From positions 1 through 10,625 of the forward strand of contig JAJZKS010000039.1 in NCBI GenBank assembly GCA_021850835.1: a DNA stretch of 10,625 nt. The letters run 5' to 3'. Below the pieces are notes generated by a model. The model had not been told where the DNA came from. It worked only from the letters and a program-made list of their open reading frames with translations, and ran no database searches. This DNA comes from Thermoplasmata archaeon. GTDB lineage: Archaea; Thermoplasmatota; Thermoplasmata; Thermoplasmatales; Thermoplasmataceae. Below, one piece after another: positions 439 to 6,624 of the stretch (its first letter is position 1; each line of letters starts with the position of its first letter). The translations under genes and the position numbers were made by a program.

Positions 439-1137
439 TTACTCAAGCGGAGATAGTGGAATTCCAAGGCCCCAGCTGAATGTTGATCCTTGTGCGGATG
501 CTGAAGCGTTTGAAGGCAGGAAGGCGTATAGTGTGTAGGTTATGCTCTGGCCATCTGCAAGAGAGGTAGGCGTTGAGGAAGATGAGGTCGCATTTGCAAG
601 GAAATCAAGTCCGCTGGTTGAAATGCCTCCACCAAGGTTTCCTGTGTTCACTACGCTGTTTAAGTATTGTTTTGTTACTGGGGGCTGCAGCTCACTTATC
701 GGAACCGGGCTGTTAAAGACCTGGCCTGCACCATTGGCCACTGGTGAGGTGGAATCGAGCATACTTGTGTTCAAAGTGGCTGTTCCTGTGTTTGTCACTG
801 TTATCTGGAACTCAAGCCAATATCCTGGGAGCATACCACTAACGTTTCCGTATACATTTAACGTCGAGGCTGCAATTCCGTTTACTGTAACTAAATTCTT
901 TCCAGGCGTGGCAGCAGTTACATCATTGAGGGTCTGCCCTCCGTTAAATCCCAGCGCCAAAGGGTTGTATGACGAGGCGTTTGTCGCAACAAAACTCAGG
1001 GTCTCTGTATAGCTGACGGTAGCTGCCGACTCATGAAAGTAGGCATTCGCTTGTCCGCTCCAAGCGGAAAAAGCGAAAGTCCCTCCCATAACTACTACGA
1101 CGGGGACCATCATCATGGCAAACAATTTCTTGTTCAT
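439..1137 (-). CDS. TasA/camelysin-like secreted fibre protein with SipW-type signal peptide
   Basis: The 232-residue protein is predicted to be exported. Residues 2-4 carry lysines, followed by a hydrophobic stretch (5-19) and the segment GGTFAFSAWSGQANAYF (18-34). This resembles the GGTFAYFSD-type end of SipW-dependent signal peptides, and cleavage may fall between residues 22 and 32. The mature part is rich in T, S, N, G and V, with alternating beta-strand patterns. The blocks MLPGYWLEFQITVTNTGTATL (102-122, one residue block split here only by eye) and the C-terminal YTLYAFLPSNASASAQG (201-217) match the PG..., NTGT... and LP..A pattern of TasA/CalY jelly-roll proteins. There is no C-terminal membrane anchor, so it should be released and may polymerise. 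TasA forms Bacillus biofilm fibres, and related proteins form archaeal bundling pili; a fibre role here is inferred. The start is supported by AGGTGACA at 1143-1150. A SipW-like peptidase gene lies at 4222-5397. It is a single-copy subunit gene on the strand opposite its presumed processing genes. Confidence 0.8.
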   Translation of the reverse strand: MNKKLFAMMMVPVVVVMGGTFAFSAWSGQANAYFHESAATVSYTETLSFVATNASSYNPLALGFNGGQTLNDVTAATPGKNLVTVNGIAASTLNVYGNVSGMLPGYWLEFQITVTNTGTATLNTSMLDSTSPVANGAGQVFNSPVPISELQPPVTKQYLNSVVNTGNLGGGISTSGLDFLANATSSSSTPTSLADGQSITYTLYAFLPSNASASAQGSTFSWGLGIPLSPLE

Positions 1138-1142
1138 TTTTA

Positions 1143-1150
1143 TGTCACCT
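1143..1150 (-). promoter_or_regulatory. Shine-Dalgarno site of the TasA-like gene
   Basis: AGGTGACA on the minus strand lies 5 nt before the ATG at 1137. GGTGA pairs with the archaeal 16S 3' end (AUCACCUCC), which fixes this start. Confidence 0.75.
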
Positions 1151-1218
1151 TATAAAATTCATGGATAAGTGCCTGTTAAGTGGTGTAGAAAGATTGTTAG
1201 AATTATTTGTTAGTTAAA

Positions 1219-1226
1219 TTTTTATA
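1219..1226 (-). promoter_or_regulatory. TATA box of the TasA-like gene
   Basis: On the minus strand this reads TATAAAAA followed by TTTAAC. It predicts transcription starting near 1196 and a 5' leader of about 60 nt, long enough to hold the Shine-Dalgarno site. Assigned from sequence and spacing only. Confidence 0.5.
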
Positions 1227-1370
1227 CTATAATGAAAAGAATTAAACAAATGCTATTGACAGTTTAGTTTAGCTCTAAGAACGAAGGTCTAACGCACTTA
1301 TTGTAGGAATTTAATAATTTGAATAGCCTAATTGGCACTTCAATGGGCGTGTTGGTGTTAGATTCAAACC

Positions 1371-1391
1371 GTGCAATCCACTTGATTGCAC
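1371..1391. promoter_or_regulatory. Perfect inverted repeat, operator-like
   Basis: The arms GTGCAATC (1371-1378) and GATTGCAC (1384-1391) are perfect reverse complements around the 5-nt spacer CACTT. It sits about 47 bp upstream of the TATA box at 1438 in the divergent region. An 8+8 dyad of this size is typical of a binding site for a dimeric winged-helix regulator. The obvious candidate is the product of the adjacent gene at 1673, by inference. Confidence 0.5.
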
Positions 1392-1437
1392 ATGCAAAAT
1401 TGAAATATTGTGGTTAGGTATATATATTTAGTCTAGA

Positions 1438-1446
1438 TATATAAAA
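1438..1446 (+). promoter_or_regulatory. TATA box of the winged-helix/membrane-protein cluster, inside an imperfect palindrome
   Basis: TATATAAAA at 1438-1446 is a strong archaeal TATA match and predicts a transcript start near 1470. It is embedded in an imperfect dyad: TTAGGTATATATAT (1414-1427) faces ATATATAAAACCTAA (1437-1451). From this promoter the leader to the ATG at 1673 would be about 200 nt. A second AT-rich block (1614-1628) could give a shorter transcript. Confidence 0.5.
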
Positions 1447-1672
1447 CCTAAATTATTGGAAAACGGTTATTTTGGAGATTTTGAGGCTAAGCCAATCCAG
1501 AAGTGTCTTCACTTCAGGTTATTTTATCTTATCATAAAAATTCATTAGATAATATTGGAAAAATGAAACAATCACAAAAGTATGCCGATTCAGCAAAATT
1601 AAATTTTACAAAAAATATTAATATAGTTTTCAACATAATTTCTAACCTTCTAAAAAGGGCAAGGGAGACTCC

Positions 1673-2404
1673 ATGGAATATACCAATCAAGAACCGTCGG
1701 TATCACAAGCGAACTTATGGGGAAAAATCCTTTCTATTAAGGAAATTTGGACTTTTCTTATGGCTCCAAAGTTGTTTGGAAAGTCTGGGAAGGAACACGA
1801 TTTTGATTTTGGATTTTACCTGGAAGATGATGGCTATCTGGCTCTCGGAAAGCTCTATAGCCGGGATATCCGCAATGGGCTCTCATTGTTGACCTACTTC
1901 AATGCGCAGTGCAACGATGTTGGGGCTGATAGGAAAGTCATATTCAGTGAGAGGGAAATCCCAGAAGAAGTCGAACTCCTTGCCAATACATTGAAAATAG
2001 ATATTCTAAAAAATGTTCATGAAGTGGTCAATTTCTTGTCAAAGTCGTTGAAGGAAGATGGAATCGAAAGTAATAATGAACTCCACCAGAGTTCGATCTT
2101 TTCTTTGAAAAAGGATAGTAAAGGCGACAAATCACGGAAGAAATACAGGGACAGAACAAAGTTAATCCACGAGGTTTTGAATTCTGCATCAACCGAAGAG
2201 GGCACGACACTGAACAACTTGGTCATAAAATGCAATCTCAATTACAACTCTGCAAAGAGAATCGTAGACGATCTGATTAAGAGGGAGCTCCTTAGCATTA
2301 CTAAGGATGGAAGTGACAAGACATTATACAAAACCACAGGAAACGGGTCTCAGATCATAGAAAAGCTGAGGTTCATAAATAGGGTGGGCCATAATGAGCA
2401 ATAA
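1673..2404 (+). CDS. Winged-helix DNA-binding protein with possible degenerate nuclease-like N-terminal domain
   Basis: This 243-residue soluble protein has no membrane segment. Residues about 158-236 form a winged helix. It runs from the first helix RTKLIHEVLNSA, through a second helix and recognition helix around CNLNYNSAKRIVDDLIKRELL (189-207, key residues N190, S193, K195), to the wing SDKTLYKTTGNG. This resembles the archaeal HTH_45-type winged helix. Residues about 42-112 alternate strands and helices in a restriction-endonuclease-like (Mrr-type) order: strand DFGFYL, strand GYLALGK, helix NGLSLLTYF, strand RKVIFS, then IPEEVELLA with the strand KIDIL. The usual E/Q-x-K is LGK (K60), so the fold, if correct, is probably inactive. 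A charged linker (130-160) joins the parts. ATG 1673 is chosen because the frame has a stop at 1643-1645 and AAGGGAG lies just upstream. It is the first gene of the plus-strand cluster, so it probably regulates the locus or itself. Confidence 0.65.
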   Translation: MEYTNQEPSVSQANLWGKILSIKEIWTFLMAPKLFGKSGKEHDFDFGFYLEDDGYLALGKLYSRDIRNGLSLLTYFNAQCNDVGADRKVIFSEREIPEEVELLANTLKIDILKNVHEVVNFLSKSLKEDGIESNNELHQSSIFSLKKDSKGDKSRKKYRDRTKLIHEVLNSASTEEGTTLNNLVIKCNLNYNSAKRIVDDLIKRELLSITKDGSDKTLYKTTGNGSQIIEKLRFINRVGHNEQ

Positions 2405-2441
2405 TGGAAATTCTCTTCTTAATTTCTGAAAAAGGTGGAAA

Positions 2442-3051
2442 ATGCTACTCATACTTATTATCCCAACAATCATTATCTCTTCAACCATTGTGATTTATTT
2501 TGTCCTTACAAAGGGACTTGCTTCCTACTTAAATAAGATTGAAAACAAGGCTAATAAAATCCAAAGAATCTCTATCCTATTGATAGCCTCAGATTTGGTT
2601 GCACTTTTTTCCAAGAGTGAATCTAAGACACTTGTTGACAAAATCCTGGAAGGCGCTATAGGGGATGATGATCATATGTTTAGGTCTCTTACCACTTCAT
2701 TTGGGGGGTGCCGGTCATGAGATTGAAAGATTATACAAAGAGATTAACAAGGCTTATAAACCGTCTGTGGAGCTATCAAGGATGAAAATATCCGCAACAT
2801 ATCTAAGAGCGGCTCTCTTGCTATATGGTTTCTCTGTGTCAATCTCACAGTATGTAATTGCAGTGTTTTTCTATCATGCAGGGATTTCAATTCTATCTCC
2901 CGCCATAATAGACATGATTATTGGGACATTACTATTTTCCTCTTTTTTCATCTACATTTCAGTTTACATCATTCTTATTTCGCGGCGTATTGAAATCGGA
3001 TACTCAAAGCTTCAGGACAGTGGGGCAAGGATTGGAAATGAAACGGATTGA
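2442..3051 (+). pseudogene. Three-helix membrane protein gene, interrupted by a one-base frameshift
   Basis: Two overlapping frames together describe one membrane protein. The first (2442-2720) gives 92 residues: a membrane helix (2-24), then an amphipathic charged stretch (25-85). It hits TGA right after a G6 tract (2703-2708). The +1 frame continues directly with a charged helix (GHEIERLYKEINKAYKP) and two membrane helices, ending at 3051. If the tract had five G, the product would be 202 residues with helices near 2-24, 121-143 and 154-179 and a short charged tail. The second frame has no plausible start of its own near the junction. GGTGG lies just before ATG 2442. I do not recognise the family. 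The gene lies between the regulator and the DUF5305-like gene, suggesting a membrane component of the locus. The break may be a sequencing or assembly error, a real mutation, or slippage at the tract. Confidence 0.65.
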
Positions 3052-3269
3052 TTTCAAAGTGGCATTTGCTTTTCACAATAAATTAGATCTTGGGAGGTTG
3101 GATTTAATTCAGAAACATTTATTATATTACAATGGGTTATTTCATACAGACACAAGTCAGGATCAGCGGAAGTGTGGGCTCAAAACAATACTGATGGGAT
3201 CTCGATCAACTCAGTTGCATAAAAGGTCAAAGGAGATGATTGCCACTTTGCTACATAGGGGAATTTCGC

Positions 3270-3274
3270 GGTGA
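3270..3274 (+). promoter_or_regulatory. Shine-Dalgarno site deciding a TTG start
   Basis: GGTGA lies 6 nt before TTG 3281. The TGA at 3272-3274 is also an in-frame stop for the next gene, so no longer start is possible. Together these support TTG as the initiator. Confidence 0.65.
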
Positions 3275-3280
3275 AACTGT

Positions 3281-4225
3281 TTGGATAGAAAGGATAAATT
3301 ATGGGTAAAAGCCATCTTGGTTGCATTACTTCTAATTATGGCCGCAATTGGAATGGTAATCTCTCTGGAAGCCCATCAGTACTATATCAAGGTCCCCACT
3401 TCCAGTTATGACATATCCGGCGGTTATACAGTAACCGATAATCTCTTGGCCAATCCACTTTATAACCAATCCAGCATAGAAAACCCTCAAGTCATATATA
3501 ATGGAATAACAAGCTCTATCAACTTAAGCGCACAGGTCTTCATTGAGCTTAGCAACATGTCCGTGAAGAATTTTTCCCTTATTTCACAAGTCTCTCTTGC
3601 ATCAAGTAGCCCGTCATGGGAAAAATTGATCAATACAAACATCACTTATGAAAAGGTCTCAACAAAAGGGGCCTTTGAAATACCCATTAGAATTAATCTG
3701 TCCAAGGAATTGGCCCTGGCTGACAACATAGACATTCAATTACAAGATGGTAGTTCTGTCCCAGTACTGGACATCAACCTAAGTGTTGTTTCCCAGGGTT
3801 TAGACTCATTCTCTGCATCCATTTCAATGGCTCTCCACAGCACTTATGAGGTGGTTACATACGACATTCCAGTTCCAATTTCTGTTTCATCTTATAATCA
3901 GGAACTGGTTACGCCCCACACACTTATCGGATTAGACATTGTTTTTGGTTACATTTTTCTTGCTGGGGCAGGATTGGTAGGCGTTGTTTTAGCGGTCCTG
4001 TATAAACCACGGCATGGCGATCCGCTTGAAAAAATAAAGAAAGATCATGGTGAACAAATTATTGAGATTAACACGCCACCGGAAGAGTCTGCAAAGAATC
4101 TCATGAGGCTTGAGGACATACTGAAAATATCAGAAATATTTGAAGTTCCAGTTTTTCTCTATGTTCCAGATAGGGTATTTTTTGTCAGCCATCAAGGAGA
4201 ACAGTACAAGTATGAGTTGATATGA
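3281..4225 (+). CDS. DUF5305-like bitopic membrane protein, partner of signal peptidase
   Basis: The 314-residue protein has an N-terminal membrane helix (about 8-29), an extracytoplasmic region of about 185 residues rich in beta strands, a second membrane helix (about 215-241) and a cytoplasmic tail of about 70 residues. The N-terminal strand pattern with NPLYNQSSIENPQVIYNGI (58-76) resembles the NPLF...Y...I signature of archaeal DUF5305 proteins. So does the tail ending in LEDILKISEIFEVPV (277-291), FFVSHQGEQYKYEL. DUF5305 genes are often found beside signal peptidase I genes in haloarchaea, and here the next gene is a signal peptidase overlapping by four bases (ATGA). The biochemical role is unknown; an accessory or scaffold for export or assembly of the TasA-like protein is inferred. 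The start is TTG with GGTGA upstream. The assignment rests on remembered family features, without a database search. Confidence 0.6.
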   Translation: MDRKDKLWVKAILVALLLIMAAIGMVISLEAHQYYIKVPTSSYDISGGYTVTDNLLANPLYNQSSIENPQVIYNGITSSINLSAQVFIELSNMSVKNFSLISQVSLASSSPSWEKLINTNITYEKVSTKGAFEIPIRINLSKELALADNIDIQLQDGSSVPVLDINLSVVSQGLDSFSASISMALHSTYEVVTYDIPVPISVSSYNQELVTPHTLIGLDIVFGYIFLAGAGLVGVVLAVLYKPRHGDPLEKIKKDHGEQIIEINTPPEESAKNLMRLEDILKISEIFEVPVFLYVPDRVFFVSHQGEQYKYELI

Positions 4226-5397
4226 AAAGATCCTCCCTGAAATTGCTTACTGTGATTCCGTATGTTTTAGTTTGGCAAGTTGGGTTTGTCTTTCACATTG
4301 ACAGGTTCATCATTGTACTTGTTCTTCTTTTCCCAATCATCTTTACTAGACCATCTGATTATAAGTTGAATAAGTCAATTTTGTATTCCCTAGTCTTTAG
4401 CCTGGTCTTCATATTCATGCTCATAGAACCAGCCATTGCATATGGCAAAATACATTTATATGGTACCTCAGAAGCTTTTTTCCCAAATCTGCTGTACATA
4501 TTACTGTTTAGCATATCTGTAGTTTCTATGAATCAGGGGGTTGTGATCAAAACTCTCTGGCGTAAGCCAATGATTGCGCTTACAATTTCTTCAATAGTTT
4601 ATGCTCTAAGTGTAACCCCCATACAATTATTTCTCCAATTAAATGGACTCCCTCAACTTCTTCTCTTCAATATTTCTTTTCTCATCGTCTTTTCCTTTTT
4701 AATAGGGTTTATGTACTTGAAAAGCAAGTTCAACCTTGCTACCGCATTGATCTTCCTACTGATCTATTCGGCCTTCCTTATTCTAAATGTAAATGTTCAG
4801 GTTTCTAATCTTTTCAATCTAGTCTGGGAAATCATAGCACTTTCAGTCATACTTTACCTAACAGACAGAGTAATGAAGGAATCCATCCTAGTAAGAAGGG
4901 CATTCAAATCAGGTAGAGTTGTATTTAAGAAAAAAGATCGAACCTCAGCGGTAATATTCTCTGGAATAATTGTCATATTATTGCTCCTTGTAGTCATGCC
5001 ATTGATAACACATGAATCACACTATGTCATTGCTGATCCAACCGACAGCATGTCCCCGCAGATTATACCCGGTTCTCTACTTTTCGTGTCACACATAGGA
5101 GTAAATCAGGTTAAAACAGGGGATGTCATTGTATTCAGGGCCCCTTGGGAGAACGGCACCCTCTTTGCACATGAAGTGATCAATATCACACACAGCAAAG
5201 GTCAGGAGTATTTCATAACCAAAGGGATTAATAATCCTGCAAAGGACCCATTGCCTGTGCCTTCTAGTGACTTGGTTGGCCAGGTTTATTTCGTCTTACC
5301 ATACGTGGGATTCATATTGATCTACAGTCAGGTGACCGCGTCATTCATCCTTATTTTAGCCGGCATTTTCTATTTCAAGGAAACAAGAAAAAAATAG
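4222..5397 (+). CDS. SipW-like archaeal signal peptidase I with large N-terminal membrane domain
   Basis: This protein is predicted to cut signal peptides at the outer face of the membrane. The catalytic block is residues 270-355. The nucleophile is S276 in DPTDSMSP, followed by IIPGSLLFVSH and TGDVIVFRAP, and the base is probably H317 in LFAHEVI, as in archaeal/ER-type (S26B) enzymes that use His instead of Lys. The segment TKGINNPAKDPLPVP (333-347) corresponds to the usual TKGDxN...DP motif, but the first Asp is I336; D342 is kept. The N-terminal 260 residues carry about seven or eight hydrophobic segments, and another follows at 365-385, making 391 residues against about 190 for Bacillus SipW. 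ATG 4222 overlaps the previous TGA, so the two genes are translationally coupled. A TasA-like substrate is encoded at 439-1137. The peptidase family is confident; the specific substrate is inferred. Confidence 0.85.
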   Translation: MKRSSLKLLTVIPYVLVWQVGFVFHIDRFIIVLVLLFPIIFTRPSDYKLNKSILYSLVFSLVFIFMLIEPAIAYGKIHLYGTSEAFFPNLLYILLFSISVVSMNQGVVIKTLWRKPMIALTISSIVYALSVTPIQLFLQLNGLPQLLLFNISFLIVFSFLIGFMYLKSKFNLATALIFLLIYSAFLILNVNVQVSNLFNLVWEIIALSVILYLTDRVMKESILVRRAFKSGRVVFKKKDRTSAVIFSGIIVILLLLVVMPLITHESHYVIADPTDSMSPQIIPGSLLFVSHIGVNQVKTGDVIVFRAPWENGTLFAHEVINITHSKGQEYFITKGINNPAKDPLPVPSSDLVGQVYFVLPYVGFILIYSQVTASFILILAGIFYFKETRKK

Positions 5398-5451
5398 CAC
5401 CCTTAAAATCTACATTCAACAATCATTTACAATTGTGCAGTAATAACTTAA

Positions 5452-5456
5452 TTTTT
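5452..5456 (+). terminator. Short T tract after the signal peptidase gene
   Basis: TTTTT lies 55 nt past the TAG stop and before the ribosomal promoter. It is a weak candidate archaeal terminator; nothing stronger is seen in the gap. Confidence 0.25.
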
Positions 5457-5506
5457 GCTGTAATCAACTCAAGATACAGGCAAGAAATCTGGGCTGCCAA
5501 TAAAGG

Positions 5507-5514
5507 TTTAAATA
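5507..5514 (+). promoter_or_regulatory. TATA box of the ribosomal protein operon
   Basis: TTTAAATA preceded by purine-rich AAAGG, a BRE-like element, predicts transcription starting near 5536. The leader to the uL3 start would be about 100 nt. It is the only strong TATA match in the 237-nt gap before uL3. Confidence 0.65.
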
Positions 5515-5520
5515 TGCTTA

Positions 5521-5539
5521 TAAGTTATCGAATAACTTA
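5521..5539. promoter_or_regulatory. Perfect inverted repeat at the ribosomal operon start site
   Basis: TAAGTTAT (5521-5528) and ATAACTTA (5532-5539) are perfect reverse complements around CGA. The dyad begins 7 bp after the TATA box and covers the predicted transcription start, where a bound protein would block polymerase. A direct copy of one side, AATAACTTAA, occurs at both 5442-5451 and 5531-5540. An operator role is inferred. Confidence 0.45.
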
Positions 5540-5551
5540 AAACCATACACA

Positions 5552-5605
5552 ATGGGCAATGCAATATGGCATCCCAGCAAAGCTGTCAAACTTCTGGCAG
5601 GCTGA
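5552..5605 (+). other. Short upstream reading frame in the uL3 leader
   Basis: ATG 5552 opens a 17-residue frame (MGNAIWHPSKAVKLLAG) ending in TGA 5603-5605, inside the predicted leader of the ribosomal operon. It begins about 16 nt from the predicted transcript start and has no clear ribosome site. It overlaps a possible hairpin at 5581-5603, where AGC and TGTC pair with GGCA and GCT. It may be a chance frame or a leader peptide. Confidence 0.25.
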
Positions 5606-5634
5606 AAATGTGTAACGGTCACAGGTGATAAATA

Positions 5635-6624
5635 ATGGCAACGCCACATCACCCCAGACGGGGGTCTATGGGTTACTACCCACGGGTACGTTCGAAGAGA
5701 ATGCAAGGTGACATCCGCAGCTGGCCTAATGGAGATGGAGCAGCAAAGATCCAGGCTTTCGCAGGCTATAAGGTCGGAATGACACATGTTGAAATGGTAG
5801 ACTACAGGCAGAAAAGCGTCACAGCAGGACAGAACATCATGTCTGCAGTCACAGTGGTAGAGGTTCCTCCACTCAGCGTGGCGGGAATCAGGTATTATGA
5901 TGAAACCATTGAGGGCCTAAGAATTGTTTATGAGAAATGGGCCGAGAACCTTGACAAGGAGGTTGCAAGGAGAGTTACAGCAACCAAGAACAGAAAGGAT
6001 CCTCCAATGGTTACCGAAGTTTCAGACGTAAGGTTAATCGTCCACACAAATCCACAGCTTATTACTGGAGTTCCTTCAAAGACACCAGAAATTTTTGAAA
6101 TCAGAGTGAGCGGAAACGATGTCAAGGAAAAGATGAAATATGCAGAAGAACACCTTGGCAAGCAGCTTCATTTTTCAGATTTCTCAAAGGCAGGAAATTT
6201 TGCTGACATCATCGGGGTCACGAAAGGCAAAGGTTTCCAGGGCCACGTTAAGAGATTTGGCGTAAAGCTCCTTTCAAAGCACAACAGGAAACACAGAAGG
6301 ATGATTGGTACGCTTGGTCCATGGCACCCAGATTGGGTGAGGAACACAGTTCCACAGGCAGGACAGATAGGTACTCACCAAAGGACCGCACATAACATCC
6401 GTATCATAAAACATGGAAAGAATGAGGGCGAGGACGAAATCAATGTCAAGGGAGGCTTCACAAATTACGGCCTTGTCAGGACAGAATATGTACTGTTGCA
6501 CGGCTCAATTCCAGGAGCATCTAAAAGGCTCATAAAATTCAGGGACCCAGCAAGGCAGCAGGTTCCATCTGTTGAGAACCTCACTGTTTCGTATGTTTCC
6601 AGGGAATCAAAACAGGGTGATTAA
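5635..6624 (+). CDS. rpl3: Large subunit ribosomal protein uL3
   Basis: uL3 is an early-assembling protein of the 50S subunit whose extension reaches the peptidyl-transferase region. The 329 residues match the usual archaeal length. The basic N-terminus, with HHPRRGSMGYYPRVRSKR, is typical of archaeal uL3. The region GKGFQGHVKRFG and the stretch GTLGPWHPDWVRNTVPQAGQ (225-244, with W230), then GTHQRTAHN, form the conserved tryptophan-finger and rRNA-binding segment. The start at ATG 5635 is set by AGGTGA at 5623-5628 with 6-nt spacing. It is first in an operon headed by the TATA box at 5507, and uL4 follows 2 nt after its stop. Confidence 0.97.
   Translation: MATPHHPRRGSMGYYPRVRSKRMQGDIRSWPNGDGAAKIQAFAGYKVGMTHVEMVDYRQKSVTAGQNIMSAVTVVEVPPLSVAGIRYYDETIEGLRIVYEKWAENLDKEVARRVTATKNRKDPPMVTEVSDVRLIVHTNPQLITGVPSKTPEIFEIRVSGNDVKEKMKYAEEHLGKQLHFSDFSKAGNFADIIGVTKGKGFQGHVKRFGVKLLSKHNRKHRRMIGTLGPWHPDWVRNTVPQAGQIGTHQRTAHNIRIIKHGKNEGEDEINVKGGFTNYGLVRTEYVLLHGSIPGASKRLIKFRDPARQQVPSVENLTVSYVSRESKQGD
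6615..6621 (+). promoter_or_regulatory. Shine-Dalgarno site deciding the TTG start of uL4
   Basis: GGGTGAT, inside the last codons of uL3, lies 5 nt before TTG 6627. It supports TTG as the initiator, giving the expected uL4 N-terminus. Confidence 0.7.

Follow-up and report, generated by a model that had tools for sequence, protein, structure and literature searches.

A conserved five-gene cassette with a TasA-like secreted protein and a polytopic signal peptidase in Thermoplasmatales

The locus

We consider a stretch of 10,625 nucleotides from a Thermoplasmata archaeon (contig JAJZKS010000039.1), called the window in what follows, and a cassette of five genes that lies within 5 kb of it. One gene encodes a secreted protein that is probably related to the fibre protein TasA, and the others a winged-helix protein, a small membrane protein, a DUF5305-like protein and a signal peptidase of family S26 (Table 1). 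Four of the genes are on the plus strand, and the TasA-like gene, on the minus strand, diverges from them; the end of the DUF5305-like gene and the start of the S26 gene overlap by 4 nucleotides. The window is 99.97% identical, over 10,625 bases, to contig JAJZLU010000035.1 of the metagenome-assembled genome Thermoplasmata archaeon MAS3.bin138 (locus L001, genome G001), which serves here as its whole-genome stand-in.

An earlier note, made from the letters of the window, had described this combination, and the four uninterrupted open reading frames (ORFs) of the cassette are as it described them. Its small multi-helix membrane protein has three predicted transmembrane (TM) helices, with one correction: the gene is a single one, which reads as two overlapping frames in the window (2442-2720 and 2665-3051) owing to a difference of one base in length; in L001 the copy is intact, at 202 amino acids. 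The winged-helix assignment holds, with a match to HTH_45 over the cut-off and one to Sso10a below it. The DUF5305-like protein, which the note called bitopic, has two predicted TM helices; its match to PF17231, at 26.1 bits, stays under the Pfam cut-off of 29, so that "like" must be kept in the name. The same word is needed for the SipW-like peptidase: it exceeds the cut-off of the archaeal signal peptidase family TIGR02228 (96.2 bits, cut-off 51.85, E = 1.8e-27), and matches the SipW equivalog NF046067 under the cut-off of that family (57 bits versus 190, E = 1.8e-15).

Table 1. Features of the cassette and of its surroundings in the window.
Feature	Position	Strand	Basis
Secreted protein, likely of the TasA superfamily, 232 amino acids	439..1137	-	homologues, alignments A1/A2, AbpX profile match, AlphaFold2 model
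Shine-Dalgarno-like GGTGA just 5' of the TasA-like start	1144..1151	-	read from sequence
AT-rich element like a TATA box, 5' of the TasA-like gene	1218..1233	-	by eye, in G001, G002, G004
Putative regulator, winged helix (HTH_45/Sso10a-type), 243 amino acids, no predicted TM helix	1673..2404	+	family matches
Small membrane protein, three predicted TM helices	2442..3051	+	frame split in the window; intact in L001
DUF5305-like protein, two predicted TM helices around a presumed ectodomain, short presumed cytosolic tail	3281..4225	+	
Polytopic S26 signal peptidase, 391 amino acids	4222..5397	+	TIGR02228, NF046067, SEC11A/C of PDB, TM windows

Conservation of the cassette

Within the order, 117 genomes were scanned for profile matches to the TasA-like family, to S26 and to the DUF5305-like family. 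The first is present in 19 genomes, S26 in 18, the DUF5305-like family in 17, and all three in 16, which bears out the co-occurrence that the earlier note had proposed to look for in related genomes. An overlap of at least 16 between the TasA-like family and S26 has a hypergeometric tail of 7e-15, a value that ignores the kinship between genomes. In the neighbourhoods fetched, all five genes lie on one contig in 15 of the 16 genomes; in the sixteenth, G097, they are distributed over several contigs, each at most about 4 kb long. It is near certain that the five-gene cassette is real.

The order of the genes varies. In L104 and L109 the genes form a run that points in one direction, namely winged helix, membrane protein, TasA-like, DUF5305, S26, TasA-like, TasA-like. 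L103 and L108 have the same run on the opposite strand, with small ORFs between the genes in L108, and L106 has it with an insertion; the divergent layout of the window type and another one, in L112, L114, L116 and L118, complete the picture. The gene set persists through rearrangement, which argues for a functional link. The winged-helix family is kept in the cassette, and throughout the order its gene comes paired with that of the small membrane protein. As for incomplete sets, the remaining cassette genes of G036 are on a 3 kb contig that has no TasA-like gene, and the sole match in G028 is a weak one to S26. PF10502 was found in none of ten genomes that lack each of the three genes, and also missed two cassette genomes (G104 and G106).

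The insertion in L106 (6282-8868, genome G106) interrupts the DUF5305 gene and may be a transposon; the inserted stretch carries an ORF of 501 amino acids in opposite orientation. At L107:7513-9086, L113:2223-3071 and L117:7710-9711, TasA-like paralogues, in tandem in the case of L107 and L117, lie in fetched stretches that gave no match to S26 or DUF5305.

The TasA-like paralogue that stands between the genes for the membrane protein and DUF5305 is cysteine-rich in L103, L104, L106, L108 and L109 (for example L104:2336-2992): it has 5-6 cysteines, and the two paralogues that follow S26 in each of these five loci have none. It lies upstream of the peptidase gene, a position like that of tapA, and TapA is described with two disulfides (PMC10151520). 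By analogy, this paralogue may be a TapA counterpart, that is, an initiator, in these five loci.

The peptidase and its DUF5305-like partner

The PDB relatives of the S26 enzyme are SEC11A/C. A simple hydropathy scan yields ten hydrophobic windows, of which nine precede the catalytic motifs, and we predict eight to nine TM helices in that part. The 15 copies of the order that have at least 358 amino acids show 5-10 such windows, with 8 or 9 in 12 of them; 11 copies from outside the order, in a first pass, show 4-11, and the five S26 genes of loci L134-L138, which have no DUF5305, show 2-3. The catalytic serine (SMxP) and the histidine that follows (AHE) are kept in every aligned copy that covers the region, and the predicted dyad, Ser-His instead of Ser-Lys, puts the enzyme in class S26B, the endoplasmic reticulum (ER) type. 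Cassette copies of the order carry the motif [KR]G[IV]xNP, and loci without DUF5305 the motif [KQ]GDAN. A further TIGR02228 match lies outside the cassette in 7 of 20 genomes (G001, G004, G045, G065, G070, G082 and G107).

Among 19 aligned relatives of the DUF5305-like protein, 16 match PF17231 at E<=0.1. In the phylum, 19 of 389 genomes exceed the cut-off of this family (28 match at E<=0.001), including order relatives of the window gene, and 14 of the 19 are outside the order. We fetched 13 of these 14 loci, leaving out G428: S26 adjoins DUF5305 in 11, and the other two (G218 and G257) are cut by contig ends. PDB profile searches gave no significant relative of DUF5305, and no paper was found under that term in the literature searched.

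The TasA-like profile matches in 31 of 400 genomes of the class. Strong matches outside the order (E<1e-15) are found in G478, G498, G409 and G484; the first three were fetched, and in all three S26 and DUF5305 stand beside the TasA-like gene. G484, a fragment, was not among the loci fetched, and G377 alone was fetched among the genomes with weaker matches outside the order. Locus L162 links the DUF5305 loci with those of M73/TasA type: it has DUF5305, S26, a protein matched by the M73 profile (A4, E = 1.8e-14; Pfam M73, 0.02) and a winged-helix match. L158 and L164 (16 kb each), and L159 and L161 (short contigs), have the polytopic S26-DUF5305 pair and no TasA-like match with A2 or A4 in the stretch fetched. 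L136 and L138, read by eye, contain a response-regulator-like gene, a TasA-type protein, a second SipW-type secreted protein, a simple SipW-like peptidase and again a response-regulator-like gene.

The secreted protein

A first protein search returned 38 entries including the window's own protein, hence 37 further homologues. A search with a 35-row profile, in which the best 7,992 candidates were scored, returned at least 74 entries, with no Pfam domain on any of the 74; the few names shown among them are all "hypothetical protein", Thermoplasmatales archaeon A-plasma and AK being among the sources. The window protein itself has no Pfam or NCBIfam match over cut-off. The TasA/camelysin likeness claimed by the earlier note is recovered through the family profile, and not from the single sequence.

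The protein has a short Lys-containing n-region, a hydrophobic stretch, a nearly invariant cleavage region of SipW type, G-x-x-A-F-S-A-[WF]-x-G, and a predicted beta-sandwich domain. In the 45 order-level members, G19, A22, S24, A25, G28, P104 and G118 are invariant, position 26 is always aromatic (W or F), and G105 and N116 are each kept in 43. We infer cleavage after A22 or S24; if it occurs after S24, position P2' would be aromatic, as in TasA (PMC10269814). TIGR04088, the model of SipW-dependent signal peptides, has no listed match among 37 members at E<=10, the conserved cleavage region being present nonetheless; in other Thermoplasmatota, four M73 proteins score over the cut-off of this model. 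Residues 31-232 carry few charges (9 D/E, 2 K/R) and contain 5 N-x-S/T sites. As to a viral origin, two scans of viral contigs, with S26 and with A1, gave no relative.

Three alignments were compared with 177,635 PDB sequences: A1, of 37 rows; the order-level profile, of 45 rows; and a wider alignment, extended with outside-order members. With the 45-row profile, two AbpX entries lead the list, 9sj2 (E = 0.0013) and 9rhp (0.0096); with the wider alignment AbpX is still first, at 0.00047. The match is borderline and covers about half of the profile (positions 43-154). Pfam M73/camelysin (PF12389) is the most frequent family among the 45 members, 27 of which match it at E<=1 (best 2.8e-5), and the homologue of L118 passes its cut-off, with 23.5 bits. 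Profile comparison of the family with M73 proteins of other Thermoplasmatota gives P = 2.1e-5 and a probability of 77% over a C-terminal hairpin of 40 columns, versus P = 0.008 and 5% for the negative control, DUF5305; these M73 proteins in turn match TasA 8aur at 3.3e-7.

In the PDB profile search, P104-G105 aligns with the Pro-Gly of a Pro-Gly-Asp in TasA. According to PMC10151520, the proline box of TasA (P62 with F29, Q232 and F200) is the best conserved part of that protein and the one where protomers touch. The counterpart found here is limited to Pro-Gly, those of Q232 and F200 not having been identified. In our judgement, the protein is likely to belong to the TasA superfamily. Archaeal homologues of TasA as such have been published before (PMC10151520, citing Wang et al. 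2022); our literature searches, few of them aimed directly at a link between TasA and Thermoplasmata, found no paper that makes it.

Two AlphaFold2 models, with pLDDT (predicted local distance difference test) values of 75.1 and 81.5, both predict a beta-sandwich, preceded by a low-confidence stretch at about residues 23-40. A free donor strand would look like this in a model, though other causes are possible.

Neighbouring features

Directly 5' of the TasA-like start, GGTGA or GGTGC is found in all 13 upstream regions printed. The TATA-box-like element, read by eye, has a position common to two close orthologues. The window contains a tRNA-Lys gene, the five cassette genes, and then ribosomal protein genes starting with L3, the cassette ending directly before that run (5397-5635); ORFs of the same lengths also follow the cassette in L004 and, partly, in L110. 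In L001, past the tRNA and outside the window (12619-13318), two small overlapping genes have, by eye, the look of an antitoxin and a PIN-domain toxin.

Interpretation

It is natural to conjecture that the locus is a dedicated export-and-cleavage cassette for a surface subunit of the TasA superfamily, a reading to which we give about two chances in three. The TasA-like protein would exit through Sec; the S26 enzyme would cut in the A-F-S-A-[WF] region and leave a flexible N-terminal strand; and this strand would insert into the next subunit, by donor-strand exchange as in TasA and the archaeal bundling pili, to build a surface fibre or a fibrous matrix. Fibre formation is probable. DUF5305 would probably present or hold the substrate at the peptidase, or anchor the base of the fibre, and the winged-helix and small membrane proteins would probably regulate expression; these roles are guesses from position and topology. 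A bolder and rather unlikely extension is a membrane complex of S26 and DUF5305 in which cleavage is coupled to the hand-over of the freed strand to a growing filament, the peptidase being an assembly platform as well.

Several results count against the proposed cassette function or its link to TasA. Genomes G050, G067 and G077 carry TasA-like genes without S26 or DUF5305 matches, and no TapA-like gene is seen in the window. The window protein alone has no significant match to TasA, M73 or PDB (PF12389: none at E<=1). With the 45-row profile, TasA is third (5of1, 0.19) and fourth (8aur, 0.23), neither significant alone; with the wider alignment it is fifth and sixth (0.19), behind two unrelated proteins, and with A1 neither AbpX nor TasA appears at E<=10. 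Earlier profile comparisons were weak, with probabilities of 6.6% and 8.4% on the C-terminal hairpin alone. A25 and P104 are not strictly invariant once members from outside the order are added (P104 stays at 90% or more), and the Pro-Gly/Asn-x-Gly region also matches the generic domains DUF7507, DUF11 and CARDB. As for the fold, which the earlier note had proposed to compare with TasA, a beta-sandwich is indeed predicted, but Foldseek and VIA-align, run on the two models, list generic sandwiches, with no TasA, AbpA or AbpX among the 50 matches listed per run; the absence of TasA is uninformative and not negative, because no TasA control model was matched alongside. Finally, no filament has been seen. 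The fibre locus of the earlier note is upheld in its cassette, is likely in its relation to TasA, and stays conjectural in the fibre itself.

Three other explanations can be confronted with the same data. The first, compatible with a dedicated cassette, is that S26-DUF5305 is a more general special signal peptidase, with the TasA-like protein as one substrate of several and the locus serving secretion instead of fibre building. In its favour stand the pairs of L158, L164, L159 and L161, which come from other Thermoplasmatota and whose fetched stretches gave no match with A2 or A4, and the paralogues of L107, L113 and L117, which lie apart from S26 and DUF5305; however, the TasA-like family is present in 16 of the 18 order genomes with S26, with five genes on one contig in 15, and we consider this explanation possible, with the odds clearly against it.

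The second, a main rival of the fibre reading, is that the TasA-related protein is the subunit of a non-fibrous coat: the unordered exterior protein layer of Thermoplasmatales, without filament. In Cuniculiplasma divulgatum and Oxyplasma meridianum, a protein layer of about 20 nm, unordered and of unknown identity, is described, the filaments known by identity from these species being a pilin pilus and an archaellum (PMC12448462); the low charge of residues 31-232 and their N-x-S/T sites would also suit a coat. However, the profile relatives AbpX and TasA are reported to form strand-exchanged fibres (PMC11952670, PMC9674648), and the conserved proline sits where TasA protomers contact; we consider a coat unlikely.

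The third, that the protein is a generic immunoglobulin (Ig)-like secreted protein, such as an adhesin or an S-layer-like domain, whose Pro-Gly/Asn-x-Gly likeness to TasA is convergent, draws on the matches to DUF7507, DUF11, CARDB and CEP192 PapD-like domains, on the generic fold matches and on the silence of the narrow alignment about AbpX and TasA, but is improbable, since the signal and cleavage region, the Pro-Gly strand pair and the C-terminal hairpin come in the same order (by eye) as in M73 proteins of other Thermoplasmatota, the hairpin is also supported by profile comparison, and an S26B peptidase is encoded next door.

Thermoplasmatales are described as living in very acid habitats, mostly without S-layer, and with an exterior protein layer whose identity is open (PMC12448462); filaments at the contact between Ca. 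Scheffleriplasma and its Micrarchaeon are described as well, with no protein named in the available part of that source (PMC8975820). The cassette names a candidate family for coating or linking such wall-less cells, and proposes a partner role for DUF5305. If the peptidase is indeed an assembly platform as well, donor-strand fibres would be built without chaperone or usher across Thermoplasmatota, a group mostly without wall and S-layer.

Comparison with known systems

The simple SipW-TasA loci L134, L136 and L138 share with the cassette an M73/TasA-type protein near S26, and L136 and L138 also have winged-helix-profile matches; they differ by an S26 with 2-3 predicted helices (two in L136 and L138) and by the lack of a DUF5305-profile match in the stretch fetched. 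In the tapA-sipW-tasA system of Bacillus subtilis (PF12389), a secreted subunit with a special cleavage region likewise adjoins an ER-type (Ser-His) signal peptidase, and the conserved Pro-Gly strand pair is at the protomer interface in TasA. SipW has about two membrane helices, whereas the cassette peptidase has many predicted ones and a DUF5305 partner; no TapA-like gene is seen in the window, and the sequence likeness to TasA is visible through profiles only.

The thread of Sulfolobus acidocaldarius (Saci_0406) also has a small, secreted, beta-rich subunit, with predicted signal peptidase I cleavage and donor-strand assembly (PMC9715654). It is not among the PDB matches of the profile, and the available part of the same source describes no dedicated peptidase. 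The last comparison is with AbpA of Pyrobaculum and with AbpX. ABPx is placed in Pyrodictium abyssi (PMC11952670), and we infer from the name that the AbpX of PDB is the same protein. By profile, no solved structure comes closer than AbpX, whose match spans positions 43-154, and the Abp fibres are archaeal donor-strand fibres.

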